A stretch of DNA of 63,145 nt from an uncultured archaeon (GTDB lineage Archaea > Halobacteriota > Methanosarcinia > Methanosarcinales > Methanoperedenaceae): positions 1 to 63,145 of the forward strand of contig CABMCA010000077.1 of assembly GCA_902384525.1 (NCBI GenBank), written 5' to 3'. The translations under genes were made by a program, and so were the position numbers. Position 1 is the stretch's first letter, and the number at the start of each line of letters is the position of its first letter. Below, in pieces: positions 16,950-41,800 of the stretch. The notes under the pieces are model-generated. The model did no database searches and was not told where the DNA came from. It saw only the letters and a program-made list of their open reading frames with translations.

Positions 16950-17139
16950 TTTTTAACCTCCCAATAAGATAGCAGGATGTTTATACTATATATAATCGTC
17001 GATGCTTTGGGACGGTTTCAATATGTTGACTATTTACGCCGTAAGCATTTTCGTATTTGCAGAGATTGTTTTGAATAACTTTATAACAGCCGAAAGATTT
17101 AATGTATATAAAATAATAGATTTGACTGGAGGTGAAAAA

Positions 17140-17277
17140 ATGGTTGGACTAGAAAGTTCAATGGATAACGCAACGGCAGCAAAGAAAGTAAAAGCAAAAG
17201 AAGATCCTGCCGAGAAAAAGAGATTAGATGCGTTTAATGCACAACTGAGAGCCCGCAAGGGACCTCAGCCCAAATGA
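17140..17277 (+). CDS. 45-residue charged protein upstream of narG (new small-protein family)
   Basis: A perfect GGAGGTG at 17128-17134 sits 5 bases before ATG 17140. The protein starts MVGLESSMDNATAAKKVKAK and ends AFNAQLRARKGPQPK. It is highly charged and helical, with no membrane segment or Cys. A paralogue of 51 residues lies at 27043-27198 with the same frame: M-GL-S-MD-A--AKK-K, then F-A-LRARK--QPK. Conservation of sequence plus a strong ribosome binding site shows both are translated genes. It lies 118 bases before narG, on the same strand. Function unknown. Confidence 0.75.
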   Translation: MVGLESSMDNATAAKKVKAKEDPAEKKRLDAFNAQLRARKGPQPK

Positions 17278-17351
17278 AGAAGAGAATTGCAGAAACATAT
17301 AAGCAATTTTTATACATGTGAGGAGTGGTTTACTTTTTTCCATGTTGCACC

Positions 17352-17360
17352 CTTATATTA
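17352..17360 (+). promoter_or_regulatory. Candidate TATA box of the nitrate reductase operon
   Basis: CTTATATTA lies about 35 bases before the narG TTG, predicting a very short leader, with GGGGGA (17385-17390) as the ribosome binding site. No obvious operator repeat was seen nearby. Confidence 0.35.
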
Positions 17361-17394
17361 AAACAAAACAGTATAAGTTTTAACGGGGGATATT

Positions 17395-20193
17395 TTGGCA
17401 GTAGGAGCATCGACAGAAAACTTAGCAGCAAGGCATGAACGCGCACGCGCTCTCCTGGAGCGGGGGGCTCAGGCAGCCAAACATACGCTGGCACTTGATC
17501 TTCTGGAAAGGGTGCATGAACCCATCGGTGAATACCCATATAGAGGATGGGAGACACTGTACCGTGAGCAGTGGAAGTACGATTCTTTTGGCAGGACAAC
17601 ACATTCGATAAACTGCACAGGCTCCTGTGCCTGGAAGGTCTATGTCAGGAACAACATTGCATTCAAAGAGGAGCAGTATGCTGATTATCCCGATATTAAC
17701 CCGACTCTTCCCACGTACAATCCGAGAGGATGCCAGAAAGGCGCAAATTACAAAGAATATGTTTATGGCCCGCAGCGTGTGAAATATCCCCTGATACGGA
17801 CAGGTGAGCGCGGCGAAGGAAAATGGCGCAAAGCATCGTGGGGGGAAGCACTTAGCTACATTGCTGACAAGATCGTATCTGCCATATCGAATTATGGCCC
17901 GGATACAGTGACATTCTACTCGGCCAATCCTGCAAAATTCCTTGTTTCCTATGCAGCAGGCGCACGCCTTGCTAACCTTATCGGCGGCGTGGTATGCAGT
18001 TTCTATGATTGGGTTTCAGACCTGCCGCCCGGTGAGCCGATGACATGGGGTGTGCAGACAGATTCATGCGAGGCAGCGGACTGGTTCAACTCAAAATATA
18101 TCATAATCTGGGGTTCAAATGTCCTTGAGACTCGCATTCCCGACGCTCATTTTGTGACTGAGGCCAGGATGCATGGGACAAAGATAATTGCCATCTCTCC
18201 CGAATATAACCCTGTCGCGATCCATGCGGATATCTTCATCCCGGTGAAACCAGGTACAGACGGTGCACTGGCTCTTGGAATGGCATATATTATCGTGAAT
18301 GAAAAATTATATGACGAGAACTACCTGAAAAGTTTCACAGATATGCCGATGCTTGTGCGAACCGATAATGGCAAGTTCCTCAGGGAATCTGAAGTCGTAT
18401 CAGATGGGAAGGCAGGTAATTTCTATTTCTGGGACAAAAGTTCCGGAAAGGCGGTGCTTGCACCCGGTACAATCGATTGTCCGGATAAGACGCTGGATAC
18501 CGGTGCGATAGATCAGGCACTTTTTGGGACTTTCATAATAGATACGCTTTCAGGAAAAGTGGAAGTGACAACGGTTTTTTCACTGCTTAAAAAGAAACTC
18601 AAAGATTACGATCCTGCAAGCGTTTCCGATATTACAGGTGTGGATGCCGCACTTATCACCAGGATAGCAGGCGAGTTTGCAAACACAAAACCTGCCAGGA
18701 TCATTGCGGGCGCAGGAGTAAATCACTATTACCACAATGATCTTATAAACAGGAGCATGATCCTGCTCGCCGCCCTGACAGGTAATGTCGGGATTCCGGG
18801 CGGAGGCTTTGACCACTATGTAGGCCAGGAAAAATACTGGTGCGAAGAGGGATTTTTAAAACTTGCTTATCCTCTTGGAAATATAAAGCAGAGGTTCCAG
18901 CCGACCACCCTGTGGGCATACGTGCACTCAGAAATTGAAAAAATTGAAGGAAAAAAAGAAAGAGAAGGAAAAGGAGACCCTGAAAACCATGACCTTTGGC
19001 CGCGTCCGATCAGCGAATACATACGTGAAAGCGTTGATCGCGGCTGGATGCCCCTGTATCCCGAAGGGACGCTCGACAGCGGCAAAACGCCCCGCATCCT
19101 GTTAGTATGGGGCGCCAACTTCCTTAACCAGGCCAAAGGAGCAGAATATATCCTGGCCAACCTGTGGTCAAAGCTTGACCTTATAGTAGATACTGACTTT
19201 CGCATGAACACTACGGGTTTATATGCGGATGTTATCCTTCCTTCATCAAGTATGTTCGAGAAGTGGGATTTAAGTACAACTGATCTTCATTCATACATCA
19301 GTCCATTCACCCCAATAATATCCCCGCAGCTTGAAAGCAAGACAGACTGGCAGATATTTTTAGAACTTGCCCGTGCGCTTGCAGGCACAAAGTTCTCTTT
19401 TACAGATACGCTGCCTGACGGCTCCACCATTAATCGTGATTTTTCAACACTGGTGAATGATTTTACGGAACAGGGCACGCTTTCGGAAGATAAGAGCGCA
19501 GGTCAGTTCATCCTGGATAATTCAATGGAAACAAAAGGTATGACAATGGATATGCTAAACGAGCAGCCCAGGCGTATTGTGGCAACAGATAAAGAATGGA
19601 CAAGCGATATGAAAGATAAGGAAGCGTACTATGCTTTCCAGAGAATGTACGAATTGAAACAGCCTCTTAACACACTTACAGGGAGACAGCAGTTCTACAT
19701 AGATCACGACTGGTTCCTGGAAGAGTTCCATGAGGAACTTCCTGTATACAAGCCGCCTGTGGACGGGACTAAATACAGGCTTCGATTTCTCACGCCACAC
19801 GGACGGTGGAGCATACATTCCCTGTGGCGGGATGCAAAGTACCAGCTGCGGTTACAGAGAGGTTATCCGATCGTGTACTTAAACCCGGATGATGCCGCAG
19901 CCCGCGAACTTTCAGATAACGATCCTGTTGAGATCTTCAACGACAACGGGGCAATAATCGCTAATCTTTGCATATCGACCCGGATGCCTGAGGGCTTAAC
20001 ATTGATGTATCAGGGCTGGGAACGCTACACCTTCAAAAAGGGGGGCTTCCAGAGCCCTACGACCATCCGCATCAAGCCCACACAGCTTGCGGGAGGCTAT
20101 GGACAGCTTAAATTCAAGGTAAATTACTGGGGGCCTACGGGAAATCAAAAGGATACCCGCGTGGAGATCCGAAAATACATGGAGGTTGAATAA
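17395..20193 (+). CDS. narG: Nitrate reductase-type molybdopterin catalytic subunit (NarG, type II DMSO reductase family)
   Basis: A 932-residue Mo-bisPGD subunit. The FS0 iron-sulphur ligands follow the NarG pattern: His70-x3-Cys74-x3-Cys78-x34-Cys113, in THSINCTGSC and NPRGCQKGAN. The expected molybdenum ligand is Asp205 in SFYDWVSDLPP, and YIIIWGSNVLETRIPDAHF follows as in NarG and NxrA. Nitrate reductase is the likeliest activity; nitrite oxidoreductase, perchlorate or other oxyanion reductases of the same clade cannot be excluded. The N-terminus (MAVGASTENLAARHERARAL) has no twin-arginine signal, and an in-frame TAA at 17374-17376 prevents an upstream start. The stop overlaps narH by one base. 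Confidence 0.88.
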   Translation: MAVGASTENLAARHERARALLERGAQAAKHTLALDLLERVHEPIGEYPYRGWETLYREQWKYDSFGRTTHSINCTGSCAWKVYVRNNIAFKEEQYADYPDINPTLPTYNPRGCQKGANYKEYVYGPQRVKYPLIRTGERGEGKWRKASWGEALSYIADKIVSAISNYGPDTVTFYSANPAKFLVSYAAGARLANLIGGVVCSFYDWVSDLPPGEPMTWGVQTDSCEAADWFNSKYIIIWGSNVLETRIPDAHFVTEARMHGTKIIAISPEYNPVAIHADIFIPVKPGTDGALALGMAYIIVNEKLYDENYLKSFTDMPMLVRTDNGKFLRESEVVSDGKAGNFYFWDKSSGKAVLAPGTIDCPDKTLDTGAIDQALFGTFIIDTLSGKVEVTTVFSLLKKKLKDYDPASVSDITGVDAALITRIAGEFANTKPARIIAGAGVNHYYHNDLINRSMILLAALTGNVGIPGGGFDHYVGQEKYWCEEGFLKLAYPLGNIKQRFQPTTLWAYVHSEIEKIEGKKEREGKGDPENHDLWPRPISEYIRESVDRGWMPLYPEGTLDSGKTPRILLVWGANFLNQAKGAEYILANLWSKLDLIVDTDFRMNTTGLYADVILPSSSMFEKWDLSTTDLHSYISPFTPIISPQLESKTDWQIFLELARALAGTKFSFTDTLPDGSTINRDFSTLVNDFTEQGTLSEDKSAGQFILDNSMETKGMTMDMLNEQPRRIVATDKEWTSDMKDKEAYYAFQRMYELKQPLNTLTGRQQFYIDHDWFLEEFHEELPVYKPPVDGTKYRLRFLTPHGRWSIHSLWRDAKYQLRLQRGYPIVYLNPDDAAARELSDNDPVEIFNDNGAIIANLCISTRMPEGLTLMYQGWERYTFKKGGFQSPTTIRIKPTQLAGGYGQLKFKVNYWGPTGNQKDTRVEIRKYMEVE

Positions 20194-21233
20194 TGCCCGT
20201 GCAAAAACAGGTCAGGATGGTGGCGGACTTAAACAAATGCCTCGGCTGCCATACCTGTACCATGGCGTGTAAAACCATGTGGACCGACAGGAACAAGGGT
20301 CAGATGCACATGTACTGGAACAACGTGGAAACCCGCCCAGGCAAAGGTTATCCAAAGGACTGGGAAACCCAGGGAGGATGGTTTAACACAAAAGACAAAA
20401 ACAGCATACTGCTTGCAAGTATAAACGAAGGCTATGGTACACCATGGGAATACAACTACGACCAGGTTTTAAAAACCAATGGGGGGGATGCCTCAGAATC
20501 GGTATCGGAATCGGTATTGACTCCATCTCCCAGACCCTCAGGAAATGCCTATGCAAGCAACTGGGATGAGGATGTGGGCGAAGGAACATTTCCCAATTCT
20601 TATTATTTTTACCTGCCCCGAATATGCAACCACTGCAGTGACCCTCCTTGTGTGGATGCCTGTCCGCGCCAGGCGGTATATAAGCGCAAGGAAGACGGGA
20701 TCGTCCTTGTTGACCAGAAACGATGCAGGGGTTATCGCTATTGCATAAAAGGATGTCCTTATAAAAAAATATACTACAACCCGGAAGAAAAGATATCCCA
20801 GAAGTGTATTTTCTGTTATCCCAGGATCGAGCAGCATAAAGGCAACTTATGTGCGACCCAGTGCGTTGGCCGCATACATCATGTAGGCTTTGCGGATGAT
20901 ACAGCCAGCGGCGCATATAAACTCGTGAACATATGGAAAGTGGCTTTGAGACTACATCCTGAGTTCAAGACCGAACCTAACGTATTTTACATTCCGCCTC
21001 TTTCCCCGCCTGTCTATAGTCCACAGCTTACTGAAGATCAGCGTATTCCGGTCGAAGTGCTGGCAAACTTGTTCGGCGATACGTCAGATCAGACCCACGA
21101 TCAGCGTGTTGAGAGAATAAAGGAGATATTTCGCATCATCCGGACTGAAAGGGAAAAGGTGGCAAAAGGTGAACGTTCAGAATTGATCGATATACTGATC
21201 CCTCATTCGGAAGCAGACCGGATCAAGGTGTAA
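20193..21233 (+). CDS. narH: Nitrate reductase iron-sulphur subunit (NarH-like)
   Basis: The electron-transfer subunit of the complex, 346 residues with four cysteine clusters: CLGCHTCTMAC (about 14-24), CNHCSDPPCVDACP (about 147-160), CRGYRYCIKGCP (about 180-191) and CIFCYPRIEQ...CATQC (about 207-226). The third cluster has Tyr where E. coli NarH has Trp (CRGWRMC), as seen in some relatives. Between clusters 1 and 2 there is a low-complexity insert (about 97-130, SESVSESVLTPSPRPSG). The adjacent narG, gamma-type and chaperone genes confirm its role. Confidence 0.9.
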   Translation: MPVQKQVRMVADLNKCLGCHTCTMACKTMWTDRNKGQMHMYWNNVETRPGKGYPKDWETQGGWFNTKDKNSILLASINEGYGTPWEYNYDQVLKTNGGDASESVSESVLTPSPRPSGNAYASNWDEDVGEGTFPNSYYFYLPRICNHCSDPPCVDACPRQAVYKRKEDGIVLVDQKRCRGYRYCIKGCPYKKIYYNPEEKISQKCIFCYPRIEQHKGNLCATQCVGRIHHVGFADDTASGAYKLVNIWKVALRLHPEFKTEPNVFYIPPLSPPVYSPQLTEDQRIPVEVLANLFGDTSDQTHDQRVERIKEIFRIIRTEREKVAKGERSELIDILIPHSEADRIKV

Positions 21234-21246
21234 ACAAGGTAAATTA

Positions 21247-21925
21247 TGAAAATAATAACAAAGAGGTCTTAACTCTGGCCGACAACGATCCCCAGGCGGA
21301 AATTATAGCAGTATACACATCCGGGACAATATCAATTAACCCCGAAGATCCTGTATGGCACAATGCCCTGGAAACCACTATCATTTTCAGCAGGAGACTT
21401 AATGAAGCCGGTGCAAGAACAACATTCTTCCCTGATGAGATAAGGCAGATAAAAGTTAAGGTATTGCATAACGGGAACGATATTTTTTTCTTCTATCAAT
21501 GGAATGCAGCCACAGAAAATAATTCCGTAGCTGATTATCCCATCTTTGCAGATGCAATTGCTATGGAAATCCCGCTTTTTACAGAAGAAAGTATTCTCTG
21601 CATGGGTGCTATGGACAAACCTGTGAACATTATTTTCTGGAGAGCCGATCTGCCAGTTCCCGAGAATATTGTTGCCGGGGGAATGGGCACTCCTCAAATA
21701 AGTCCTGATGAAGCTTCCCAGAACATCAGGCATTACCAGAAATGGAAGGATGGGATATGGGATGTGATAATAACCCGGCCGATGGCTGCTGGTTCGGAAA
21801 ATCAGGTTTCTTTTGTGCGCGGGAAAAATTACAGGATAGCCTTTGCTTATTGGAAAGGAGGAGCGTATGCAGAAAGGGGCGGACACAAAATAGTTTCAGA
21901 GTGGCAATATCTTTCTATCCGGTGA
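21247..21925 (+). pseudogene. Heme-binding gamma subunit of the NarGH complex, apparent frameshift at the start
   Basis: From about 21253 one long frame encodes EVLTLADNDPQAEIIAVYTS through to SEWQYLSIR, with IRHYQKWKDGIWDVIITR and IAFAYWKGGAYAERGG matching the heme-b-binding gamma subunit of ethylbenzene dehydrogenase/perchlorate-type reductases. That frame has no ATG, GTG or TTG before 21464. The only good start, ATG 21247 behind AAGGT, is in another frame and stops after 8 codons. One more A in the AAAA at 21250-21253 would give M-K-N-N-N-K-E-V-L and a ~226-residue protein. So the gene is either broken by one base or the consensus lost one A. Confidence 0.7.
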
Positions 21926-21935
21926 TCTTATCAAT

Positions 21936-22604
21936 ATGCCTCAAAAACCAATCTGTACAAGAGATCCGACAATTCGCAGTAACCTGTACAAATTACTTTC
22001 GACTGGATTCCGTTATCCGACCCCTGAACTCTTTAAAACTTTTCAAAATGGGGAATTAATAGACGAACTCATGTATAACATATCCGCAATTCCTGAGCTT
22101 AATGCCCTTATGTCAGAACACCTTCTAATGAAAGACGACGAGAAAGATGCTATGAAAGGAATGACTTTAGCTGAATTCGGGGCAATATTCACCCGGACAT
22201 TCGATACTGGCACACCTGTTCCCCCCTGTCCGCCTTACGAGGGCCATTATTGCACAAAGCCAAGGAGTATGATAATGCTGGAAGTTAGCGAATTCTACAA
22301 TTTTTTCGGTCTGTGCATGAGCCAGGAAGAAGGTAAACGGGAATTTCCGGATCATATCTGTGCAGAGCTTGAATTTCTTCATTTCTTAACCTTTAAGGAG
22401 GGAGAAGCCCTGCGCGAAGGCGAGGAGGAAAAACTCAAAGGATATCTTCTGGCGCAGAAGGATTTTCTCGAACGCCACGTGATAGAATGGGTCCCAAAAT
22501 TTTGCATTAAACTTCAAAATTCAGAAGGTGTGCATTTCTATGCCGGATTGGCTCAAATTGCATCTGGTTTTATCACCTATGAATTTGAAAACATTATAAA
22601 ATAA
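21936..22604 (+). CDS. TorD/NarJ-family molybdoenzyme chaperone
   Basis: The 222-residue all-helical protein fits the TorD/DmsD/NarJ family of chaperones that guide cofactor insertion and assembly of molybdoenzymes. Visible features: SNLYKLLSTGFRYPTPELF at the N-terminus, AEFGAIFTRTFDTG, the PPCPPYEGHYC loop and the late ELEFLHFLTFKEGEAL block typical of TorD-like proteins. GGTGATC precedes the ATG. It is the last gene of the narG-narH-gamma-chaperone operon, so its client is presumably NarG. Confidence 0.83.
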   Translation: MPQKPICTRDPTIRSNLYKLLSTGFRYPTPELFKTFQNGELIDELMYNISAIPELNALMSEHLLMKDDEKDAMKGMTLAEFGAIFTRTFDTGTPVPPCPPYEGHYCTKPRSMIMLEVSEFYNFFGLCMSQEEGKREFPDHICAELEFLHFLTFKEGEALREGEEEKLKGYLLAQKDFLERHVIEWVPKFCIKLQNSEGVHFYAGLAQIASGFITYEFENIIK

Positions 22605-22616
22605 AATTGACAGTAA

Positions 22617-23891
22617 TTACAGGTTTCCGCGCAATTTCTCTGCATGCAGTATTCTGTTTAATGCAAGCTGGTATGCCGACTTTCTCATCCTGCAATTTTT
22701 TTCATCACACAAAGAATGGATTTCATTGTAGGCAATTATCATGGTTTTTTTGAGCCTTTCCAGGACTTTATCCTCTTCCCAATAATCATTATTGAGGTTC
22801 TGTATCCATTCAAAATAGCTTACCACCACACCCCCTGCATTTGCGAGAACATCGGGTATAAGTATTATTTTTTTATCAAAAAAAATATTGTCAGCTTCTC
22901 TTGTAGTTGGGGCGTTTGCAAGTTCCATGACCATTTTGGCCTTAACATCGTTCGCATTGGCCGAATTCAGCTGGTCTGAGAGAGCTGCAGGGATCAGGAT
23001 ATCGCATTCGCATGTTAAAAGTTCCTCATTCGTAATATTGCAACTTTCTTTAAAATCAACAACACTCCCTGTTATCAATTTATGTTCCATTACAGCCTTG
23101 ATATCAAGACCGTCCTTATTTATTATGCCGCCTTTTGAATCACTCACAGCAATCACTTTGTATCCTTTCTCATGCAGGATGCGGGCTGCGTTCTCTCCCA
23201 CATTCCCGAATCCCTGTACGGCAATGCTGACCTCGAATTTATCCATATCCATTCTTTTCATGGCTTCTTCGAGTACATAGATCCCACCAAGGGATGTGGA
23301 ATAACTTCTTGCTTTGCTGCCCCCCAGGTCAACCGGTTTCCCGGTCACTACTGCAAATACATGTTCTCTTTTTATCCGTTCATATTCATCAAGTATCCAG
23401 ACCATGATATTTTCATCAGTATAAACATCGGGTGCCGGGATATCAATAAATGGCCCGATATAGTTCGCGATGGCACGGATATAGCCTCGTGTGACCTGCT
23501 CAAGCTCATTCCTGCTGAGTTCCTTGGGATTTACCACTACACCGCCTTTTGATCCCCCGAAAGGTATGTTAACAACAGCGCATTTAAGGGCCATCAAGAA
23601 AGAAAGATCCTTGACATGGTCAAGGGTCAATTCAGGGTGGAACCTGATGCCTCCTTTAGCCGGGCCGCGGGCATCGTTATAATGCACCCTGTATCCAACG
23701 AACATTTTTATTTTCCCGGAGTCCATTCTCACCGGGAAATGAACTATGAAAGAACGCCGTGGCATGTCCAGCAAATCGAGTTCTTCCTGGGATAGCCCAA
23801 TTTCTGAATATATACTACTGAGTTCACTTATGGCCAGTTTACAGAGATTCCTGTCATCGACGTTAATCCTTTCATGATTATTGATTTGCAC
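22617..23891 (-). CDS. gdhA: Glutamate dehydrogenase (Glu/Leu/Phe/Val family)
   Basis: Reversibly converts glutamate to 2-oxoglutarate and ammonia. The 424-residue protein has KGGIRFHPELTLDHVKDLSF then LMALKCAVVNIPFGGSKGG, including the catalytic Lys in the KCA context, followed by the Rossmann motif GFGNVGENAA (about 225). The length matches the archaeal hexameric enzyme. Start is GTG 23891 behind GAGG. It converges with the nar operon end, leaving only 12 bases between the two stop codons. Cofactor preference (NAD or NADP) is not clear from sequence. Confidence 0.92.
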   Translation of the reverse strand: MQINNHERINVDDRNLCKLAISELSSIYSEIGLSQEELDLLDMPRRSFIVHFPVRMDSGKIKMFVGYRVHYNDARGPAKGGIRFHPELTLDHVKDLSFLMALKCAVVNIPFGGSKGGVVVNPKELSRNELEQVTRGYIRAIANYIGPFIDIPAPDVYTDENIMVWILDEYERIKREHVFAVVTGKPVDLGGSKARSYSTSLGGIYVLEEAMKRMDMDKFEVSIAVQGFGNVGENAARILHEKGYKVIAVSDSKGGIINKDGLDIKAVMEHKLITGSVVDFKESCNITNEELLTCECDILIPAALSDQLNSANANDVKAKMVMELANAPTTREADNIFFDKKIILIPDVLANAGGVVVSYFEWIQNLNNDYWEEDKVLERLKKTMIIAYNEIHSLCDEKNCRMRKSAYQLALNRILHAEKLRGNL

Positions 23892-23936
23892 AAATCCAAC
23901 CTCTTTTGTATTATTATCCTCTTCTTTAAGGGACTT

Positions 23937-23950
23937 TTCATATATTAAAG
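23937..23950 (-). promoter_or_regulatory. Candidate TATA box for gdhA in a divergent promoter region
   Basis: On the minus strand CTTTAATATATGAA lies about 50 bases before the gdhA GTG. The opposite strand has CTATATATT at 23982-23990 for the lplB operon, so both are driven from the same 162-base spacer. Confidence 0.4.
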
Positions 23951-23981
23951 AGAACCGGAAAAGAATTGAAAATGTCAGAAT

Positions 23982-23990
23982 CTATATATT
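23982..23990 (+). promoter_or_regulatory. Candidate TATA box for lplB-lplA
   Basis: CTATATATT lies about 65 bases before the lplB TTG. The ribosome binding site AGGAGG is at 24043-24048. Confidence 0.35.
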
Positions 23991-24053
23991 TCTTTATTTC
24001 CATTAGTTTAATGGTAAGAGTAAGGATTCTACCAGGAGTATCAGGAGGTTATT

Positions 24054-24332
24054 TTGATTGCCCATTCCAAAAAGGTTAAAGAAGGAAAAATTGTAAAAGT
24101 AGAAGTGGAGGTTGATGATGTCATCAAAAAGCTCAGGATTACCGGGGATTTTTTCCTGCATCCCGAAGAGGTCCTGGATGATATAGAAAAAAGTATGACT
24201 GGCTTGAAAAAGGATGTAAGCTTTGATACAATAGTCCTCAAAATCCAAAATATTGTAAAGGATCACAATTCCCAGATGATCGGCATAAGCCCTGAGTCCA
24301 TCGCGGAAGTCTTGAGGGAGGCGTTAAAATGA
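24054..24332 (+). CDS. lplB: Lipoate-protein ligase small subunit LplB (C-terminal domain type)
   Basis: A 92-residue stand-alone version of the accessory C-terminal domain of lipoate-protein ligase, as first seen in Thermoplasma. It reads MIAHSKKVKEGKIVKVEVEV, then KKLRITGDFFLHPEEVLDDI and a final helical part ending AEVLREALK. GDFF-HPE is the hallmark of this domain. It is needed with LplA to activate lipoate. Start TTG is chosen from AGGAGG 5 bases upstream. It overlaps lplA by 4 bases. Confidence 0.85.
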   Translation: MIAHSKKVKEGKIVKVEVEVDDVIKKLRITGDFFLHPEEVLDDIEKSMTGLKKDVSFDTIVLKIQNIVKDHNSQMIGISPESIAEVLREALK

Positions 24333-25081
24333 ATTTGAAATGGAGGGTCATAGGGCTTGAAACCCATGATGCCTACCTGAACATGGCTCTTGATGAAGCA
24401 GTAAGCGAAGGCGTAAGAGCCGGATCATCCCTGCCCACTATACGATTCTATAACTGGAAACCGAATGCCGTTTCCATAGGTTATTTCCAGGGCCTGAAGG
24501 ACGAGGTCAATCTTGATGTGTGCAGGGAACTGGATGTGGACTGCATAAGGCGATGGACAGGCGGAGGGGCGGTTTATCATGATTTTGAAGGGGAGATAAC
24601 ATACAGCGTGATAGCGCCTGCAAACATATTCCCGAAGAATATAATAGAATCGTACAGGTTAATATGCGGCTGGCTTGTCAGGGGTCTTGAAAGCCTTGGA
24701 ATTGAAGCCGAGTTCAGGCCGGTTAACGATATTCTTGTAAAGGGTAAAAAAATTTCAGGAAGCGCCCAGACAAGGAGAGGAGGGATATTGCTCCAGCATG
24801 GCACCCTGCTTTACGGGCTTGACCTTAAAACAATGTTCAGTGTGCTTAATGTGAACAGGCAGAAAATTACAGATAAGATGATAGAGAGCGCCCAGGAGCG
24901 TGTCACATGTGTATGTAAGCACAGCGATGCAGGAAAGATGGAAGTTTATGAGGCTCTCATTTGTGCTTTTACAGAAGGCAAGGATTATGAGTTGGGCACA
25001 TGGAGTATGGATGAACTGGCAAGAGCTAAGGAGCTTGCTGAAGGAAAATACAGAAGCGATGAATGGATGTATATGAGGTGA
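24329..25081 (+). CDS. lplA: Lipoate-protein ligase catalytic subunit LplA
   Basis: The 250-residue catalytic domain attaches lipoate to E2 and related proteins through lipoyl-AMP. It has MALDEAVSEG (about 17-26), the RRWTGGGAVYHD nucleotide and lipoate loop (about 74-85), and KKISGSAQTRRGGILLQHGT, which contains the conserved Lys. The accessory domain is separate (lplB). The gene overlaps lplB. A client, the E2 of pyruvate dehydrogenase, is encoded at 38880, and lipoyl synthase at 35910. Confidence 0.9.
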   Translation: MNLKWRVIGLETHDAYLNMALDEAVSEGVRAGSSLPTIRFYNWKPNAVSIGYFQGLKDEVNLDVCRELDVDCIRRWTGGGAVYHDFEGEITYSVIAPANIFPKNIIESYRLICGWLVRGLESLGIEAEFRPVNDILVKGKKISGSAQTRRGGILLQHGTLLYGLDLKTMFSVLNVNRQKITDKMIESAQERVTCVCKHSDAGKMEVYEALICAFTEGKDYELGTWSMDELARAKELAEGKYRSDEWMYMR

Positions 25082-25086
25082 TCTTA

Positions 25087-25773
25087 ATGAAACTTCAAAA
25101 TAAAAGCGTGATAGTTACCGGAAGCGGAAGAGGCATCGGGGAATATATTGCAAAGAGATTAGGAAGGGAAGGGGCAAATATAGTAGTAACAGGAAGGACA
25201 ACAAAAGATATAGAAAAAGTGAGTGAAGAAATAAATAATGAAGGAGGTAGATCGGTTTTCATTGAAGGGGATGTCACAAGAGAAGAAGATGTGAAACAAG
25301 TTATTCATGGAACTATCAAAGAATTCGGGAAAGTTGATCTGGTTGTAAATAATGCAGGGATCGGATTAAAAAAATATATATGGGAAACCGGTGTCGAAGA
25401 GTTTGGGGAATTAATGGATGTGAATGTGAAAGGGGTTTTTCTTTACATGAAGCATATTATCCCGGAGATGAAAATAAATGGAGGTTTAATAATAAATATT
25501 TCATCAGGTGCAGGGAAAGAGGGGATTCCAATGCTGGGCGCATACTGTGCATCAAAATTTGCAGTGATCGGCCTTACCGAATCTGCTGCAGCTGAAGTCA
25601 ATAATGTCAAAATAGTTGCATTATGCCCTGGAAGCGTGGATACAGGGATGTTCAAGCGGCTCTTTCCGGGTGAAAAGGCAGACCTCAAACCGGATGATGT
25701 CGCACAAAAAGTGGCGGATATCTGCACCCATCCGGAAAAATATTGTCAGGGTCAATCCATTGAACTTTATTAA
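25087..25773 (+). CDS. Short-chain dehydrogenase/reductase (FabG-like)
   Basis: A classical SDR of 228 residues: cofactor motif TGSGRGIG (about 11-18), NNAG (about 82-85), catalytic Ser in NISSGAG (about 135) and YCASK (about 150-154). GAGGTGA at 25075-25081 is 5 bases before ATG 25087, so I prefer this start over the upstream ATG at 25063. It overlaps the lplA promoter-distal end closely and is probably read with lplBA. The substrate is unknown; a role in making the fatty acid precursor of lipoate is conceivable but unsupported. Confidence 0.85.
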   Translation: MKLQNKSVIVTGSGRGIGEYIAKRLGREGANIVVTGRTTKDIEKVSEEINNEGGRSVFIEGDVTREEDVKQVIHGTIKEFGKVDLVVNNAGIGLKKYIWETGVEEFGELMDVNVKGVFLYMKHIIPEMKINGGLIINISSGAGKEGIPMLGAYCASKFAVIGLTESAAAEVNNVKIVALCPGSVDTGMFKRLFPGEKADLKPDDVAQKVADICTHPEKYCQGQSIELY

Positions 25774-26492: not shown

Positions 26493-26637
26493 GGATACTT
26501 AAATGGAAGATATTCATCGCAGTAATATCGAATCCAGACGAAGTCGAGACCCTGATAATGACCCTACTGCCCGGGGTGCTGAACAGGTTGCAGGCAGCCC
26601 ACACCGTATCTGCGGTAATAACGCAACGCGATAAGAT

Positions 26638-26835
26638 CTACAATATCTTTGCAAATGATAGTGGAAGAATACACGGCGCCAGATTATGCAGGGTTCGATC
26701 GTGGATAACAGGGACCACCTCCTGGTCAATAATACCGAGTACATTTTTTGAATTTGCACCATCGACGATGGCATCTGCCATCGCTTTTGTATTACCTGAT
26801 GTACGGAGATATACAACAACTACTTTTGGTGGCAT
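26638..26835 (-). pseudogene. Flavodoxin N-terminal remnant
   Basis: On the minus strand the first ~45 codons read MPPKVVVVYLRTSGNTKAMA, then DAIVDGANSKNV. This is a flavodoxin FMN-phosphate loop (TSGNT) and first helix. The reading then loses similarity (TLHNLAPCILPLSFAKIL) and stops after 65 codons, under half the usual ~140. The next expected flavodoxin stretch appears on the opposite strand at 26655-26708, suggesting a small inversion. The gene is therefore broken. Confidence 0.5.
26655..26708 (+). pseudogene. Inverted flavodoxin fragment
   Basis: The plus-strand bases read MIVEEYTAPDYAGFDRG then stop. VEEYTAPDYAGFDG-IVVG is the kind of second-strand sequence that should follow the N-terminal remnant on the other strand. 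The break falls near the palindromic TTCGATCG at 26694-26701. Evidence is a short similarity only. Confidence 0.35.
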
Positions 26836-27042: not shown

Positions 27043-27198
27043 TCAATCGTATTGTGCACCTTTTGGCTGTTCTGCCTTGCGTGCTCTCAGTTTTGCATAG
27101 AACTCTTTCTGTCTCTCTCTTTCGGTATCAGCGACTTCTGGTTTTTTGATCTTTTTAGCATCTTCTGCCAGGTCCATAGCGCTATCCAGTCCTGCCAT
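27043..27198 (-). CDS. 51-residue charged protein, paralogue of the protein upstream of narG
   Basis: On the minus strand, AGGAGGTGA (about 27205-27213) precedes ATG 27198. The protein begins MAGLDSAMDLAEDAKKIKKP and ends EFYAKLRARKAEQPKGAQYD. It shares M-GL-S-MD-A--AKK-K and F-A-LRARK--QPK with the 45-residue protein at 17140. There are no Cys and no membrane helix. The neighbours (flavodoxin remnant, CAP-dockerin gene) give no clue to function. Two conserved paralogues 10 kb apart argue for a genuine small-protein family. Confidence 0.72.
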   Translation of the reverse strand: MAGLDSAMDLAEDAKKIKKPEVADTERERQKEFYAKLRARKAEQPKGAQYD

Positions 27199-27489
27199 TG
27201 TATTTCACCTCCTTTTTATTAAATTATACAACAAAAATCACATTTTTTCAACTCTTTTCAATATTTGATTCGATGATTAATTTGAAACTACTCGTCGAGG
27301 TATTGCAACAATACTCCCTTTTTCCTTTAACACTATGACCTCCAATGGATTATAATTATTATTCATTACTTACTTGTATTAATACCTATCGCAGTACCTG
27401 AAATTATATTAAAAAGTAATTTTTTCGCAATATGCAAGGGAGAACATAAAGGATTTTATTGTATCCCATACATAGGTGGAAAATAGGTC

Positions 27490-35909: not shown

Positions 35910-36788
35910 GTGAGTGCTTATGCTGCCAATAAACCCGAATGGCTCAAAATAAGACCGCCATCCGGAACAAAATTCATGGTTTTGAAGAAAACCGTTGAGG
36001 ATCTTAAATTAAACACGGTCTGCACGGGCGCAAGATGCCCGAACCTTGGGGAATGCTGGACTCATGGTACTGCCACTTTTATGATACTTGGCTCGATATG
36101 CACAAGAAACTGCAAGTTCTGCGCTGTTATAAAAGGAAAGGAAGGAGAGACCCTCGACTCTTCAGAACCCGGAAGGGTTGCGCAGGCTGTGGGAAAGCTG
36201 GGTTTAAAATATGTTGTTCTTACATCGGTAGACAGGGATGACCTTCCGGATGGCGGATCAATGCATTTTGCAAACTGCATCAAAGAAATAAAATCTCTTG
36301 GTGAAAACATTATTGTGGAAGCCCTGATACCCGATTTTGGGGGAGATGAAGAGTCCTTGCGCAAAATTGCAGATGCTCATCCTGATGTGGTCGGGCATAA
36401 TATTGAAACTGTTCAGGAACTTCAGGTTCATGTGAGGGATATTAGAGCCGGATACACTTTGTCCCTGGAAGTACTCAGTAAAGTAAAGCAGATGTCTTCT
36501 TCCATATATACCAAATCATCCCTGATGCTTGGTCTTGGGGAAACGGAAGATATGATCATCCGAACTATGGATGATTTGAGATCCCGGGGTGTCAGTATCC
36601 TCACACTGGGCCAGTACCTGAGACCTTCAGTAAAGCAGCTTGAGGTCAAAGAATATATATCGCCTGAAAAATTTGCATATTATAAAAAAATAGCAAGTGA
36701 GAAAGGATTCATCCGGGTTATGAGCGGACCATTTGTGAGAAGCTCGTATATGGCCCATTCAGTAAAGATTAAGAAGGTTAAGAACTAA
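35910..36788 (+). CDS. lipA: Lipoyl synthase
   Basis: A radical-SAM enzyme that inserts two sulphurs into protein-bound octanoate. The N-terminal auxiliary cluster motif CTGARCPNLGEC and the radical-SAM CTRNCKFC are intact, followed by VVLTSVDRDDLPDGG and the final SGPFVRSSYMA. I prefer GTG 35910 (6 bases after GAGGTGA 35897-35903) over GTG 35904, which would touch the ribosome binding site. It heads the operon lipA-pdhA-pdhB-pdhC-lpdA. Confidence 0.93.
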   Translation: MSAYAANKPEWLKIRPPSGTKFMVLKKTVEDLKLNTVCTGARCPNLGECWTHGTATFMILGSICTRNCKFCAVIKGKEGETLDSSEPGRVAQAVGKLGLKYVVLTSVDRDDLPDGGSMHFANCIKEIKSLGENIIVEALIPDFGGDEESLRKIADAHPDVVGHNIETVQELQVHVRDIRAGYTLSLEVLSKVKQMSSSIYTKSSLMLGLGETEDMIIRTMDDLRSRGVSILTLGQYLRPSVKQLEVKEYISPEKFAYYKKIASEKGFIRVMSGPFVRSSYMAHSVKIKKVKN

Positions 36789-36808
36789 TTTATAAATGGG
36801 GTGTAAAG

Positions 36809-37897
36809 TTGCCAAGGCAAAAAATTCTGGATATGAGTGTGGATTGGCTTTCGATTCTGGACGCAGAAGGTAATGTGGATGAGAGCCTGGAGCCAAAACT
36901 GGATACGGAAACACTTGAAAAATTCTACAGGACGATGGTGCTTACCCGTATGTATGATGATAAAGCATTGAAACTTCAACGCCAGGGGAGAATGCTTACT
37001 TTCGGTTCTTCGCTGGGGCAGGAGGCGACGGCAGTAGGAAGTGCTTTTGCCATGAAACCTGATGACTGGTTTTTTCCTGCTTTCAGGGAGCATGGCGTCC
37101 AGATAGCAAGAGGCATCCCCCTCTCGCTTCTTTACATTTACTGGATGGGCTCTGAAGACGCAAACCTTAAGCTTCCCCCGAAGAACTTTCCTGTGGCAAT
37201 TCCAGTTTCTACCCAGATACTCCATGCCGTAGGGGCTGCATGGGCAGCGAAGATTAAGAAACAGAACATAGCTTCAGTCGTTTATTTCGGGGATGGTGCA
37301 ACCTCGGAGGGGGATTTTCACGAAGGGATGAATTTTGCGGGCGTATTCAAGACCCCGACAGTTTTTATCTGCCAGAATAACCAGTATGCCATATCCCTTC
37401 CCAGGGAAAAGCAGACAGCATCAAAAACACTTGCACAGAAGGCTTTAGCATATGGTTTTGAAGGCATACAGATTGATGGTAACGATGTTCTGGCAGTGTA
37501 TAGCGTAACTTTAACCGCACTTGAAAAAGCCAGGTCTGGCGGCGGCCCTACGATGATAGAGTGCTTCACTTACCGCATGGGTCCTCATACAACATCCGAT
37601 GATCCCACCAAGTACAGAAAGGCGGCAGAGGTCGAAGAATGGAAAAAAAAGGACCCCATAAAACGTCTGCGCATATACCTTGAAAAAAAAGGCATGTGGG
37701 ATCAGAGCCGCGAAGATGCCATGATAAAAGAAATTACTGATGAAGTTGAGAAGGCTGTAAAAGAGGCTGAAAGCTATAAGCCAGTGGTTGAGAACATGTT
37801 CAAATATGTATATGCCGATAAGCCCCTGCATTTAAAAGAACAGATGGATGAACTCCAGGGCTTCATTTCAAAAAGAAGGGGGAATGAGTCTGGCTAA
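36809..37897 (+). CDS. pdhA: Pyruvate dehydrogenase E1 component, alpha subunit
   Basis: A 362-residue thiamine-diphosphate-binding subunit that decarboxylates pyruvate with E1beta. It has SSLGQEATAVGSAFAM, FPAFREHGVQIARG, and the ThDP site GDGATSEGDFHEGMNFA...CQNNQYAIS (about 160-195). Conserved HTTSDDPTKYR near 266 is the phosphorylation-loop region of the family. Start is TTG 36809, 5 bases after GGGGTG. It overlaps pdhB by 14 bases. Branched-chain oxo-acid dehydrogenase is an alternative substrate class. Confidence 0.9.
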   Translation: MPRQKILDMSVDWLSILDAEGNVDESLEPKLDTETLEKFYRTMVLTRMYDDKALKLQRQGRMLTFGSSLGQEATAVGSAFAMKPDDWFFPAFREHGVQIARGIPLSLLYIYWMGSEDANLKLPPKNFPVAIPVSTQILHAVGAAWAAKIKKQNIASVVYFGDGATSEGDFHEGMNFAGVFKTPTVFICQNNQYAISLPREKQTASKTLAQKALAYGFEGIQIDGNDVLAVYSVTLTALEKARSGGGPTMIECFTYRMGPHTTSDDPTKYRKAAEVEEWKKKDPIKRLRIYLEKKGMWDQSREDAMIKEITDEVEKAVKEAESYKPVVENMFKYVYADKPLHLKEQMDELQGFISKRRGNESG

Positions 37898-38861
37898 ACT
37901 CAATATGGTACAGGCGATCAACCTTGCTCTCTTTGAAGAAATGGAAAAGGATCCCACTGTCCTGGTCATGGGCGAGGATGTGGGTGTGGATGGCGGAGTT
38001 TTCAGGGTCACAGAAGGTCTTCTCAGTAAATTTGGAAGCGATCGCGTGATCGATACGCCTCTTGCAGAATCCGGGATAGTAGGGACAGCAATAGGCATGG
38101 CAGTATCGGGTCTCAAACCCGTTGCTGAAATACAATTCGAGGGATTCAGCTATATGACCATTGACCAGCTTGCAGCACATGCTTCCAGGATAAGGTATAG
38201 ATCCCGCGGGACATACCATTGTCCCCTTGTAGTAAGGGCGCCTTATGGAGGAGGTGTGAAGGCACTGGAACATCATTCAGAAGCGGTGGCGACTTTTTAT
38301 ATCCACATTCCGGGCTTAAAAGTGGTTATTCCTTCAACGCCTTATGATGCCAAGGGACTCCTTATTTCCTCTATCAGGGACCCTGATCCGGTCATGTTCT
38401 TTGAGCCTAAAAAGCTTTACCGCGCTTTTAAGGAAGAAGTACCGGAAGGCGAATACACTGTCCCGCTTGGAGTGGGAAAGAAGATCACGGAAGGAGAGGA
38501 TTTGACCCTTATAGCCTGGGGTGCCATGGTCAGGGTGTGCCAGGAAGCCATGGAACAGGTCAAAGATCTGAATGTTGAGCTTATAGATTTACGTACGCTC
38601 TCGCCCCTTGATGACAAAGTCATTATAGATTCCGTAAAAAAAACCGGCAGGGTGGTTATTGTCCATGAAGAACCCAGGACACTTGGTTTCGGGGCAGAGA
38701 TCATCGCAAGAATTAATGAAAAAGCTCTCCTCTCCCTTGAAGCGCCGGTCAAAAGGGTAACAGGGTTCGATGTTCCGATGCCGTTGCCCAAGCTTGAGGA
38801 TTATTATCTACCGAATGCAGCAAAGGTAGCTGATGCAATAAAAGAGGTTGCGGCTTTTTGA
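37884..38861 (+). CDS. pdhB: Pyruvate dehydrogenase E1 component, beta subunit
   Basis: The partner of E1alpha. The 325-residue protein starts with MSLAKLNMVQAINLALFEEM and includes VMGEDVGVDGGVFRVTEGL, RVIDTPLAESGIVGTAIGMA, the GGGVKALEHHSEA loop, and IDLRTLSPLDD in the C-terminal domain. ATG 37884 follows AGGGGG and gives the family start, so the earlier in-frame ATG at 37848 is not preferred. It is followed by pdhC after 18 bases. Confidence 0.92.
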   Translation: MSLAKLNMVQAINLALFEEMEKDPTVLVMGEDVGVDGGVFRVTEGLLSKFGSDRVIDTPLAESGIVGTAIGMAVSGLKPVAEIQFEGFSYMTIDQLAAHASRIRYRSRGTYHCPLVVRAPYGGGVKALEHHSEAVATFYIHIPGLKVVIPSTPYDAKGLLISSIRDPDPVMFFEPKKLYRAFKEEVPEGEYTVPLGVGKKITEGEDLTLIAWGAMVRVCQEAMEQVKDLNVELIDLRTLSPLDDKVIIDSVKKTGRVVIVHEEPRTLGFGAEIIARINEKALLSLEAPVKRVTGFDVPMPLPKLEDYYLPNAAKVADAIKEVAAF

Positions 38862-38879
38862 GGTGAAAAAGGTGAAAAT

Positions 38880-40274
38880 ATGGTCGATGTAAAATTTCCA
38901 GATGTTGGTGAAGGTGTGACTGAAGGTACGATTGTCAAGTGGCTTGTAAAAGAGGGAGACGAAATCAAAGCTGACCAGACAGTGGCAGAGATAGAAACAG
39001 ATAAGGCAATAGTTGAAATACCTTCATCCGAAGCAGGGAAGATAGTGAAACTTGTTGGAAAAGAGGGGGATGTGATAAAAGTCGGCAGCACCCTTGCTTC
39101 ACTAGCATTACCCGGAGAAGCGGTAGGGAAGCCCGAAACCGGGGTTCCTGAAAAACCAGGTGAAGCTAAACCAGCTGAGGCTAAACCAACTGAGGCTGAA
39201 CCTACTGAAGCTAAACCAACTGAGGCTAAACCAAGTGAGGTTAAACCAACTGAAGTAAAACCAACTGAGGCAAAACCAGGTGAGGTTAAACCAACTGAAG
39301 TAAAACCAACTGAGGTTAAACCTCAGGAAAAGCCGGCCGAGATGCTGGGAAGAGTCTTAGCTGTGCCATCCACAAGGCGCCTTGCAAGGGAACTGGGCGT
39401 GGATATATCAAAGGTTAAGGGTACAGGGCCAGGGGGAAGAATCACTGATGAGGATGTCAGGAAATCCACAGTAACTGAAGCTAAAGCTGAAGCTAAAGTT
39501 GAAGTTCCACAGGCGCCTGAAACCAGGAAGCCAGAGGCTGCACCGGTTGAAATTACACGGGAAATAAAAGCACTGGAAGAGAGGATCCCGATAAAGGGCA
39601 TCAGAAAGACCATAGGTGAAAGGATGGTTCTCTCGTTATTTACGGCTCCTCATGTTGTTTCCATGGATGAGGCAGATGTGACTGAGCTTGTCAAACTCCG
39701 TGAAAAAGAAAAAAAATTGGCCGAGGAGAAAGGCATCAAGCTTACATACCTTGCATTTATTGTCAAAGCAGTGACAGTTGCGTTGAAGCAGCACCCATAC
39801 CTGAATGCTTCCCTTGATTCGAAGAAAAATGAAATAGTTCTTAAACGATACTACAACATAGGGATAGCAGTTGACACTCCCGAAGGTTTGATGGTCCCTG
39901 TTATCAAAGATGCGGACCGCAAAAGCATCATGGAACTGGCCCGTGTGAGCGAAAAACTCGCTGATGAAGCAAGGACAAGAAAGATCAAACTCCCGGATTT
40001 AAAGGGAAACACTTTCACGATAACGAATATAGGGAGCATCGGAGGGATTTTTTCTACTCCCATTATCAATCCTCCTGATGTTGCCATACTCGGTATCCAC
40101 AGGATAAGGGACATGCCTGTTGTAATAGACGGGGAGATAAAGATAAGAAAAATACTGCCCATTGTCCTGTCGTTTGACCACAGGGTGCTTGACGGCGCGC
40201 AGGCTGCAAGGTTCATGAATACCCTGATAGAACATCTTAAAGATCCGGATCTACTTCTGCTGGACGGGGTATAA
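38880..40274 (+). CDS. pdhC: Dihydrolipoamide acyltransferase E2 of the pyruvate dehydrogenase complex
   Basis: The 464-residue core of the complex. It has an N-terminal lipoyl domain with the lipoylated Lys42 in ETDKAIVEIPSS, a charged Pro/Lys/Glu linker made of short repeats (about 96-150), an E1/E3-binding domain (about 160-195, VPSTRRLARELGVDISKVKG), a second linker and a catalytic domain ending SFDHRVLDGAQAARF with the active-site His (about 433). All three domains are intact. GAGGTGAAAAAGGTG precedes the ATG. Confidence 0.94.
   Translation: MVDVKFPDVGEGVTEGTIVKWLVKEGDEIKADQTVAEIETDKAIVEIPSSEAGKIVKLVGKEGDVIKVGSTLASLALPGEAVGKPETGVPEKPGEAKPAEAKPTEAEPTEAKPTEAKPSEVKPTEVKPTEAKPGEVKPTEVKPTEVKPQEKPAEMLGRVLAVPSTRRLARELGVDISKVKGTGPGGRITDEDVRKSTVTEAKAEAKVEVPQAPETRKPEAAPVEITREIKALEERIPIKGIRKTIGERMVLSLFTAPHVVSMDEADVTELVKLREKEKKLAEEKGIKLTYLAFIVKAVTVALKQHPYLNASLDSKKNEIVLKRYYNIGIAVDTPEGLMVPVIKDADRKSIMELARVSEKLADEARTRKIKLPDLKGNTFTITNIGSIGGIFSTPIINPPDVAILGIHRIRDMPVVIDGEIKIRKILPIVLSFDHRVLDGAQAARFMNTLIEHLKDPDLLLLDGV
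39163..39330 (+). repeat. Repeated codons of the E2 linker
   Basis: About a dozen near-repeats of a 12- to 15-base unit (AAACCAACTGAGG-type) encode KPTEAKPTEVKP-style segments. They give the flexible swinging arm of E2. Slippage here could easily vary its length. Confidence 0.8.
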
Positions 40275-41681
40275 ATGGTAATGGGAGATATCGTCACAGG
40301 CTGTGAAGTTCTTGTAGTTGGCGGAGGACCGGGTGGTTATACGGCTGCCATCAGGGCATCGCAGCTTGGCAAGGACGTAATACTCGTTGATAAATATGAC
40401 CCTGGCGGCACATGTGTCTACCGCGGCTGCATTCCTGCAAAAACTTTAATTCATGCGGCCAATTTCATTTACGATATAAAGAATCCGGGAAACATCGGGA
40501 TTAAGGGTTCTGTCGAATTTGATTATAAAAATATCCAGAAATGGAAATACGAGGTTATTAAAAAGTTAAGGGACGGCATAGGAAGCCTCTGCAAGAAATA
40601 AGGCGAGACTGTGATAAAGGGCGAGGTTTTTTTTGAGTCCTCTGATAAGGCAAGAGTTACGTTAACAGATTGGGAAATCTCAACCATCCGGTTTGAGAAT
40701 GCAATAATCGCTACTGGTTCGTATCCGCAGGAGTTCCCGGGATTTCCTTTTGACGGCAAATTTGTTATAAACTCAAATGAAGCTCTCGGCCTTATGAAGA
40801 TACCTGAAGACGTGGTGATACTGGGTGCAGGTTATATTAGCGTTGAACTGGGTACGATGTTTGCCAAGTTTGGAACTAAAGTAAAAATCGTGCAGCGTTC
40901 TTCCAGGATTCTTTCCATGTTTGATAACGAACTGGTTGAAGTAGTAAGCCGGAAAATGAAAAAGCTGGGTATGGAGGTATATTATAATTCCACGCCGCAG
41001 AAGTTGAGCACAGAAAATAATAAAGCTGTGATAACGATTGTTGACGATAAAGGAAAGGAAACGCAGCTTAAAGCTGATAAAATACTTGCAGCAATTGGTG
41101 TAAAACCGAACACCGGGAATCTGGGGCTTGAAAATACAGGGGGTGAACTGGATAAGAACGGTTTTATCAAGGTGGATGAAAAACTGCATACTACATATCC
41201 GAAAATATTTGCGGTCGGTGATGTTACCGGACCGTCATTCATTGCCACTAAAGCTTTCAGGGAAGGCAAAGTTGCGGCAGAAGTGATAGCGGGTAGCCCG
41301 AGTGCTTTTGATAACAGGGCAATACCGCTGACTGTATTTTCAGACCCCGAAATAGCCTCAGTTGGCCTTGATGAAGAAAGTGCCAGAAAAAGCGGTTTTG
41401 AAATAAAAACAGGCAAGTTTCCTTTTAAAGCATCGGGAAGTGCCCTGACAATGGACAGGACAGAGGGATTTGTGAAAGTAGTGGCAAAAACAGACGGGGA
41501 AATACTCGGTATACATATAGTAGGAGCGAACGCCTCAATGCTGATAAGTGAGGCATCGCATTCCATAGAGATGGCTGCTTTTTTAGAAGACCTTGCAGGA
41601 ACGATACACCCGCATCCAACTCTTCCTGAAGCGCTTGCCGAAGCGGCAGAAGCAGCACTGGGAAAAGTGATTCATTTATGA
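40275..41681 (+). pseudogene. lpdA: Dihydrolipoamide dehydrogenase (E3) with one in-frame TAA
   Basis: The gene encodes a 467-codon flavoprotein that reoxidises dihydrolipoamide. Domain order is normal: GGGPGGYTAAIRA FAD site, disulphide GGTCVYRGCIPAK, second dinucleotide motif GAGYISVELG, VNP-type C-terminal HPHPTLPEA with the catalytic His/Glu. At codon 109 (40599-40601) the frame has TAA between CKK and GETVIKGE; the frame is otherwise continuous. A one-base change from TAT would repair it. It may be a true mutation, a sequencing error or a readthrough; TAA is not the pyrrolysine codon. Operon position after pdhC is as expected. Confidence 0.85.
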
Positions 41682-41800
41682 TTATTTTAATTCGTATATC
41701 TAGTGTGGCACACATTGCTTCTGCTAGCTGTAGTCAACCGCTGGACGCTCGACGCTGTTGTTCATCGTCCTGACCCTGCGCTTTACCCCCGAATGTTACT

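Follow-up and report, generated by a model that had tools for sequence, protein, structure and literature searches.

A family of 30–51 residue proteins with strong translation signals in Methanoperedens, one member of which lies beside a nitrate reductase block

The window analyzed here, a 63,145-nucleotide stretch of DNA from an uncultured archaeon of the Methanoperedenaceae, holds two tiny genes of similar sequence, one of them beside a nitrate reductase block, which raises the question of whether these genes represent a genuine protein family and, if so, whether its function is tied to nitrate reduction or lies elsewhere. Translation confirmed that both open reading frames described in the original prediction exist, encoding proteins of 45 and 51 residues. 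Both had been assigned to the minus strand, which is correct for the 51-residue gene but not for the 45-residue gene, which is read from the plus strand. The strong Shine–Dalgarno (SD) sequence noted for both genes is present, with GGAGGTGA lying 4 nt upstream of the ATG of the 45-mer and 6 nt upstream of that of the 51-mer. The genes and their signals are as follows:

17080–17113, plus strand: putative promoter of the 45-residue gene, ACAGCCGAAAGATTTAATGTATATAAA, BRE/TATA-like, recognized by comparison of upstream sequences
17128–17135, plus strand: SD sequence GGAGGTGA of the 45-residue gene, of a length rare elsewhere
17140–17277, plus strand: family member of subfamily A, 45 residues, MVGLESSMDNATAAKKVKAKEDPAEKKRLDAFNAQLRARKGPQPK, ending LRARKGPQPK
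27043–27198, minus strand: family member of subfamily B, 51 residues, MAGLDSAMDLAEDAKKIKKPEVADTERERQKEFYAKLRARKAEQPKGAQYD, ending EQPKGAQYD
27205–27212, minus strand: SD sequence GGAGGTGA of the 51-residue gene

The two proteins are 52–53% identical with one internal gap, and a whole-genome search with the 51-mer retrieved the 45-mer (E = 2e-6), these two being the only copies found by that search in the 2.92-Mb assembly. In the close relative G006, the orthologue of the 45-residue protein differs by one residue and that of the 51-residue protein is 86% identical; since each window gene is closer to its own G006 counterpart than to the other window gene, the two are old paralogues. The high basic charge claimed for both holds for the 45-mer (net +5, pI 10) but not for the 51-mer (net +1, pI 8). 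Upstream of the subfamily-A genes, a box, ACAGCCGAAAGATTTAAA.TATAT, is kept even where the sequence farther upstream is unrelated, which suggests that these genes carry a putative promoter of their own.

Of 34 Methanoperedenaceae genomes, 31 carry the family according to a profile search, with 1–7 copies each, and 30 gave homologues when a single sequence served as query; no member was found in the Methanoperedenaceae genomes G008 and G014. In a second family of the same order, which may, as a guess, be the ANME-2a/b family, the profile search identified a short core form of 30–37 residues in 10 of 17 genomes, for example MADKVSKAESDRLKKFNEQLRARKAPLPKK, which has a GAGGTGA-type ribosome-binding site of its own. 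The other sampled genomes of the order gave no significant match beyond these two families, and the profile had no further significant match in 238 genomes of the class and 393 genomes sampled from the phylum. A scan of 84,980 species returned 36 loci, all titled Methanoperedens or Methanoperedenaceae, uncultured archaeon or Methanosarcinales archaeon METP1, its pattern being the N-terminal extension, to which the short form is invisible. These stand-alone proteins of 30–51 residues form an unnamed family that is carried by nearly all Methanoperedens genomes and recurs in a single related family of archaea. Its annotation is probably incomplete, since a core of 30 residues can escape normal gene callers.

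Pooled pN/pS ratios were 0.139 for subfamily A (computed over 10 genes), 0.182 for subfamily B, and 0.161 for subfamily B2, with 0.39–0.61 synonymous differences per site in these sets, indicating that the family is under strong purifying selection. Together with its presence in 31 of 34 genomes, these ratios place the family far beyond chance. Among 64 family genes, 77% are preceded by an SD match of 8 nt or longer and 97% by one of 6 nt or longer; among 551 other genes, the shares are 2% and 18%, a conservative contrast since the starts of the 551 comparison genes were picked to favor a ribosome-binding site. Homologues and a conserved SD sequence, the two features by which the original prediction could be judged, were thus both found, decisively. 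Codon usage of the family genes is only slightly nearer to that of mcrA than the background is, so that the ribosome-binding site would be the sole pointer to high abundance. A near-universal, often multicopy Methanoperedens family with such exceptional translation signals is likely to be important to these methane consumers.

Comparison of all members distinguished seven forms:

Form A: 45–47 residues, tail RARKAPQPK
Form B: 50–51 residues, tail EQPxGAQY, 26 of 74 distinct sequences
Form C: 47–51 residues
Form D: 100–105 residues, the common N-terminus followed by a basic linker and a C-x2-C-x15-CC domain, 8 genes
Form E: 41–42 residues, adjoining an integrase gene
Form F: 30–40 residues, the core alone
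Form G: a single 179-residue membrane protein whose N-terminus is the module, L059:7775-8311 (reverse-strand position)

The core of about 30 residues is constant and consists of a segment predicted to be helical, E..R...F...LR.R, followed by a tail, for example APQPK, while the N-terminal helix, MVGLESSMDxAxxAxKVK, is a Methanoperedens addition to this core and is present in both window genes. Conservation across forms is 90% or higher at E26, R29, F33, L37, and R40. An AlphaFold2 model of the 51-mer, built with 26 sequences and of low confidence (pLDDT 72, pTM 0.36), places helices at residues 4–15 and 24–38, followed by a flexible tail; since form F keeps only the second helix and the tail, these are the constant unit. 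The corresponding model of the desulforedoxin fusion form (pLDDT 57) was too poor for use. Net charge ranges from +4 to +7 in the core form, from +5 to +6 in subfamily A, from 0 to +5 (mean about +2) in subfamily B, and from 0 to +2 (mean about +1) in subfamily E, and is positive in subfamily C. The stand-alone forms contain 38–47% charged residues, no cysteine, and almost no tryptophan, and they are, as had been proposed, soluble and free of membrane helices. The helices have hydrophobic moments no higher than those of shuffled sequences, and an amphipathic docking face is therefore not statistically supported.

The statement that the family has no name proved right, as searches of Pfam and NCBIfam gave no match and no relative emerged when alignments of 2, 24, and 18 rows were run as profiles against PDB; no curated family covers these proteins of 30–51 residues. 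PHROGs yielded only sub-threshold matches (E 0.1), for the short form and to unknown families, seven pattern matches in viral contigs were unrelated to the family, a plasmid collection contained no member, and a literature search for the family's peptide strings found no mention. Three known systems come nearest, two of them through the fused forms and one as a small stand-alone protein. The C-terminal domain of form D matches desulforedoxin (PDB 1cfw, E = 0.002), sharing in a protein of about 100 residues the C-x2-C-x15-CC spacing of desulforedoxin and of the N-terminal domain of desulfoferrodoxin (PF06397). The Cys4 site is confined to the 8 fusion genes and is missing from the two window genes and every other stand-alone form. 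The 179-residue protein of form G sets the module before a two-helix membrane region as in SLATT or DUF4231-type proteins, with a weak DUF4231 match below the cut-off (E 0.008), but this membrane fusion was seen once only, outside the window.

The small stand-alone protein is MtrI (MM_2401), an oxygen-responsive small subunit that Methanosarcina mazei attaches to its Mtr complex; it has 68 residues, is encoded by a stand-alone Methanosarcinales gene in varying genomic context, and has also been reported from Methanoperedenaceae and Methanocomedenaceae (PMC12774963). It contains an N-terminal four-cysteine zinc ribbon and a cobalt-ligating Cys40, and binds Mtr upon oxidation (PMC12774963). Like MtrI, the present proteins are tiny, stand-alone, helical, soluble products of Methanosarcinales genes whose context varies, whereas their stand-alone members have 30–51 residues and neither a zinc ribbon nor any cysteine. 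Homology to MtrI was rejected, given the absence of cysteine from every stand-alone member and the lack of a relative in the PDB profile searches.

Genomic context was compared for 64 family genes, and no single gene is a constant neighbor, so context names no partner. A 55-residue zinc-ribbon gene, cl0, lies 3′ of 23 of the 64; a 58-residue gene, cl1, intact or as a remnant, lies upstream of 15 and typically occupies that position ahead of genes of subfamily B. A flavodoxin gene and a gene for a 104-residue membrane protein each lie 3′ of 5 of the 64. In several genomes, the order cl1, family gene, cl0 occurs within a few kb of mcrA. The 51-residue gene of the window is flanked by two decayed partners:

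26741–26835, minus strand: truncated flavodoxin fragment MPPKVVVVYLRTSGNTKAMADAIVDGANSKNV, followed by unrelated sequence
27248–27333, minus strand: frameshifted, truncated cl1 remnant, MLKGKGRIIAIPP...SSFKVLIES..., recognized from the reading frames

A longer flavodoxin gene lies 3′ of the family gene in G030, G009, G020, and G029. The 51-residue gene is itself intact between the decayed cl1 and flavodoxin sequences, which indicates that selection acts on this gene by itself. Directly after the flavodoxin fragment, pieces of window positions 26506–26746 recur in G004, G005, G006, and G030. The cl0 protein (MCSTYTPFEIKPEEL..CVSCKKTF..CPNCGS..IKPRAP; L067:7026-7193, L079:8384-8551, and 17 more loci) is encoded in 30 of the 34 Methanoperedenaceae genomes, in many cases close to mcrA; it reaches the cut-off of no curated family and weakly resembles a putative Zn-ribbon RNA-binding protein at a score far below the cut-off (E 9e-4). 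The cl1 protein (L079:7845-8021 and 9 more loci), MLKGKGRIIAIPPASSFKVLIESKIVNDSQFPLPLEKGAEIDVEIENEKVILKRxxQI, has no match in Pfam, NCBIfam, or PDB, and its gene is decayed in G006 as well as in the window genome.

Given these observations, our tentative reading is that the family provides a small accessory or regulatory subunit that docks on a complex of core metabolism, a proposal we hold as the leading one at somewhat less than even confidence. It is favored by the distribution and copy number of the family, the short form with its own ribosome-binding site, the purifying selection, and the strong SD sequences, as well as by the fusion of the module with a desulforedoxin-type domain and, once, with a membrane protein, the two-helix model with its flexible tail, the persistence of an intact gene beside decayed partners, the proximity to mcrA in several genomes, and the precedent of MtrI, which demonstrates that such peptides can be genuine subunits of methane-metabolism complexes. 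The core alone would be largely unfolded or helical and would become ordered upon binding a shared partner, to which the N-terminal helix would add a second contact and to which the fused versions would bring an Fe/Zn-Cys4 center. The likeliest partner, as a guess, would be a conserved protein complex of core (methane or redox) metabolism, and the role could resemble that of MtrI on the Mtr complex of Methanosarcina, by analogy and not by homology. The desulforedoxin fusion points to a redox role and gives a testable lead toward redox biology. The reading is weakened by the lack of a constant neighbor, the low-confidence AlphaFold2 model, the unsupported amphipathic face, and a codon usage that hardly approaches that of mcrA. 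Among the partners named in the original prediction (RNA, a ribosome, or an enzyme), a soluble partner of an enzyme is accordingly the option we favor. A broader version, in which the core is a docking module common to ANME-type archaea by which short, strongly translated peptides and desulforedoxin fusions, using one and the same helix, plug into a single central methane-metabolism complex, is rather improbable in our estimate; if true, it would amount to a redox-responsive subunit system that annotation has missed.

The accessory subunit was favored over the strongest rival, an RNA- or ribosome-associated protein that would contact rRNA or mRNA through its basic tail, LRARKAPQPK, for example as a stress or hibernation factor. 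This rival, which we consider unlikely, accords with the strongly positive charge of the core form and subfamily A, with the abundance suggested by the ribosome-binding sites, and with the position 3′ of 23 family genes of cl0, which faintly resembles a putative RNA-binding protein. The near-neutral charge of subfamilies B and E weakens the argument from basic charge that the original prediction had made, and their mean values speak against purely electrostatic nucleic-acid binding. No solved ribosomal or other chain in the PDB matches the family, and a ribosomal factor would not ordinarily be fused to desulforedoxin or to a membrane protein.

A hydrophilic, mostly disordered stress protectant that acts without a specific partner is improbable. 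The high proportion of charged residues, the lack of cysteine and near lack of tryptophan in the stand-alone forms, the low-confidence fold, and the multicopy, dispensable nature of the genes, as judged from the two genomes in which none was found, are all consistent with such a protein, but the five residues conserved across forms and the retention of the module as the N-terminus of other proteins are not. Selfish spread of a mobile cassette of promoter and gene, with little function for the host, is very unlikely. Genomic positions vary among close relatives, conserved blocks of about 0.3–0.5 kb lie between unrelated flanks, and subfamily E adjoins an integrase gene, as such a cassette would predict; against it stand the pN/pS ratios of 0.14–0.18, the persistence of subfamilies A and B side by side in several genomes, the absence of matches in viral or plasmid collections, and stable orthologous loci in several genomes (the mcr locus and the HgdB/MptA locus).

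The position beside the nitrate reductase operon, from which the original prediction took its title, is real, as a NarG-type gene begins at 17395, 117 nt downstream of the 45-residue gene on the same strand. The features concerned are:

17376–24042: nitrate reductase block, with NarG-type gene 17395–20193, NarH-type gene 20193–21233, and further genes
24329–25081, plus strand: lipoate-protein-ligase-like gene (cl13, lplA), named from sequence alone

The window NarG matches TIGR01580 below the curated cut-off; NarG of this kind was found in 9 of the 34 genomes, and TIGR01580 brought in two more, whose NarG is canonical. At 3 of these 11 loci, a family gene lies within 6 kb of narG: the window gene precedes it by 117 nt and that of G028 by about 1 kb, and in G004 the distance, to a different narG, is 5 kb. 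Since by our own estimate about 0.1 cases would be expected by chance, proximity is, by this estimate, enriched. This enrichment is what a dedicated Nar accessory protein would predict, and yet such a role is very doubtful, and as a general function was largely rejected on co-occurrence and synteny. The three narG-near genes belong to different subfamilies, and 20 of the 31 carrier genomes have no NarG match, which removes most of the value of nar proximity as a clue to function. In G006, where the orthologue differing by one residue sits without a nar block, some 6 bp separate the segments corresponding to 17072–17375 (promoter and subfamily-A gene) and 24043–25773 (lipoate-ligase region), and nar genes are absent from this junction. 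The published Methanoperedens nar cluster begins with NarG and lists no such small gene (PMC4683180). Nitrate reductase has been described as laterally acquired in Methanoperedens (PMC7327174), and shared insertion regions can therefore explain the proximity and are a better account of it than a functional pair.

The nar block at 17376–24042 was either inserted in the window genome or deleted in G006. G028 and the window share the order citrate synthase, family gene, narGH, so a loss of the block from G006 is equally possible. In G030 and G006, the lipoate-ligase-like gene lies next to, or next but one from, the subfamily-A gene, which in G030 immediately precedes it. In G030, a dehydrogenase-complex operon (of pyruvate dehydrogenase type, judging from sequence) lies directly 3′ of the ligase-like gene, whereas in the window the operon, at 36757–41683, sits 11 kb from that gene, indicating that the stretch between them has been rearranged.

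The weakest alternative, a RiPP precursor with an N-terminal leader and a variable C-terminal core, would suit the conserved N-terminus, the C-terminal variants among paralogues, and a B12 radical SAM protein (a distant RiPP C-methyltransferase match) convergent near mcr-locus copies, but it is highly improbable and was rejected, as the short form lacks the supposed leader while conserving the supposed core, the radical SAM gene goes with the mcr-locus copies alone, whereas a maturation enzyme beside each copy would be expected, and the module is fused to other domains. Three genes were observed near mcrA or the mcr-type copies, encoding an unnamed 104-residue protein (YDLVLPPGVPHKLI.., L079:9166-9480), an 82-residue DnaJ-type zinc-finger protein (L079:9578-9826), and the B12 radical SAM protein itself (733 residues, L071:8699-10900), the C-terminal region of which looks PqqD-like in our reading.
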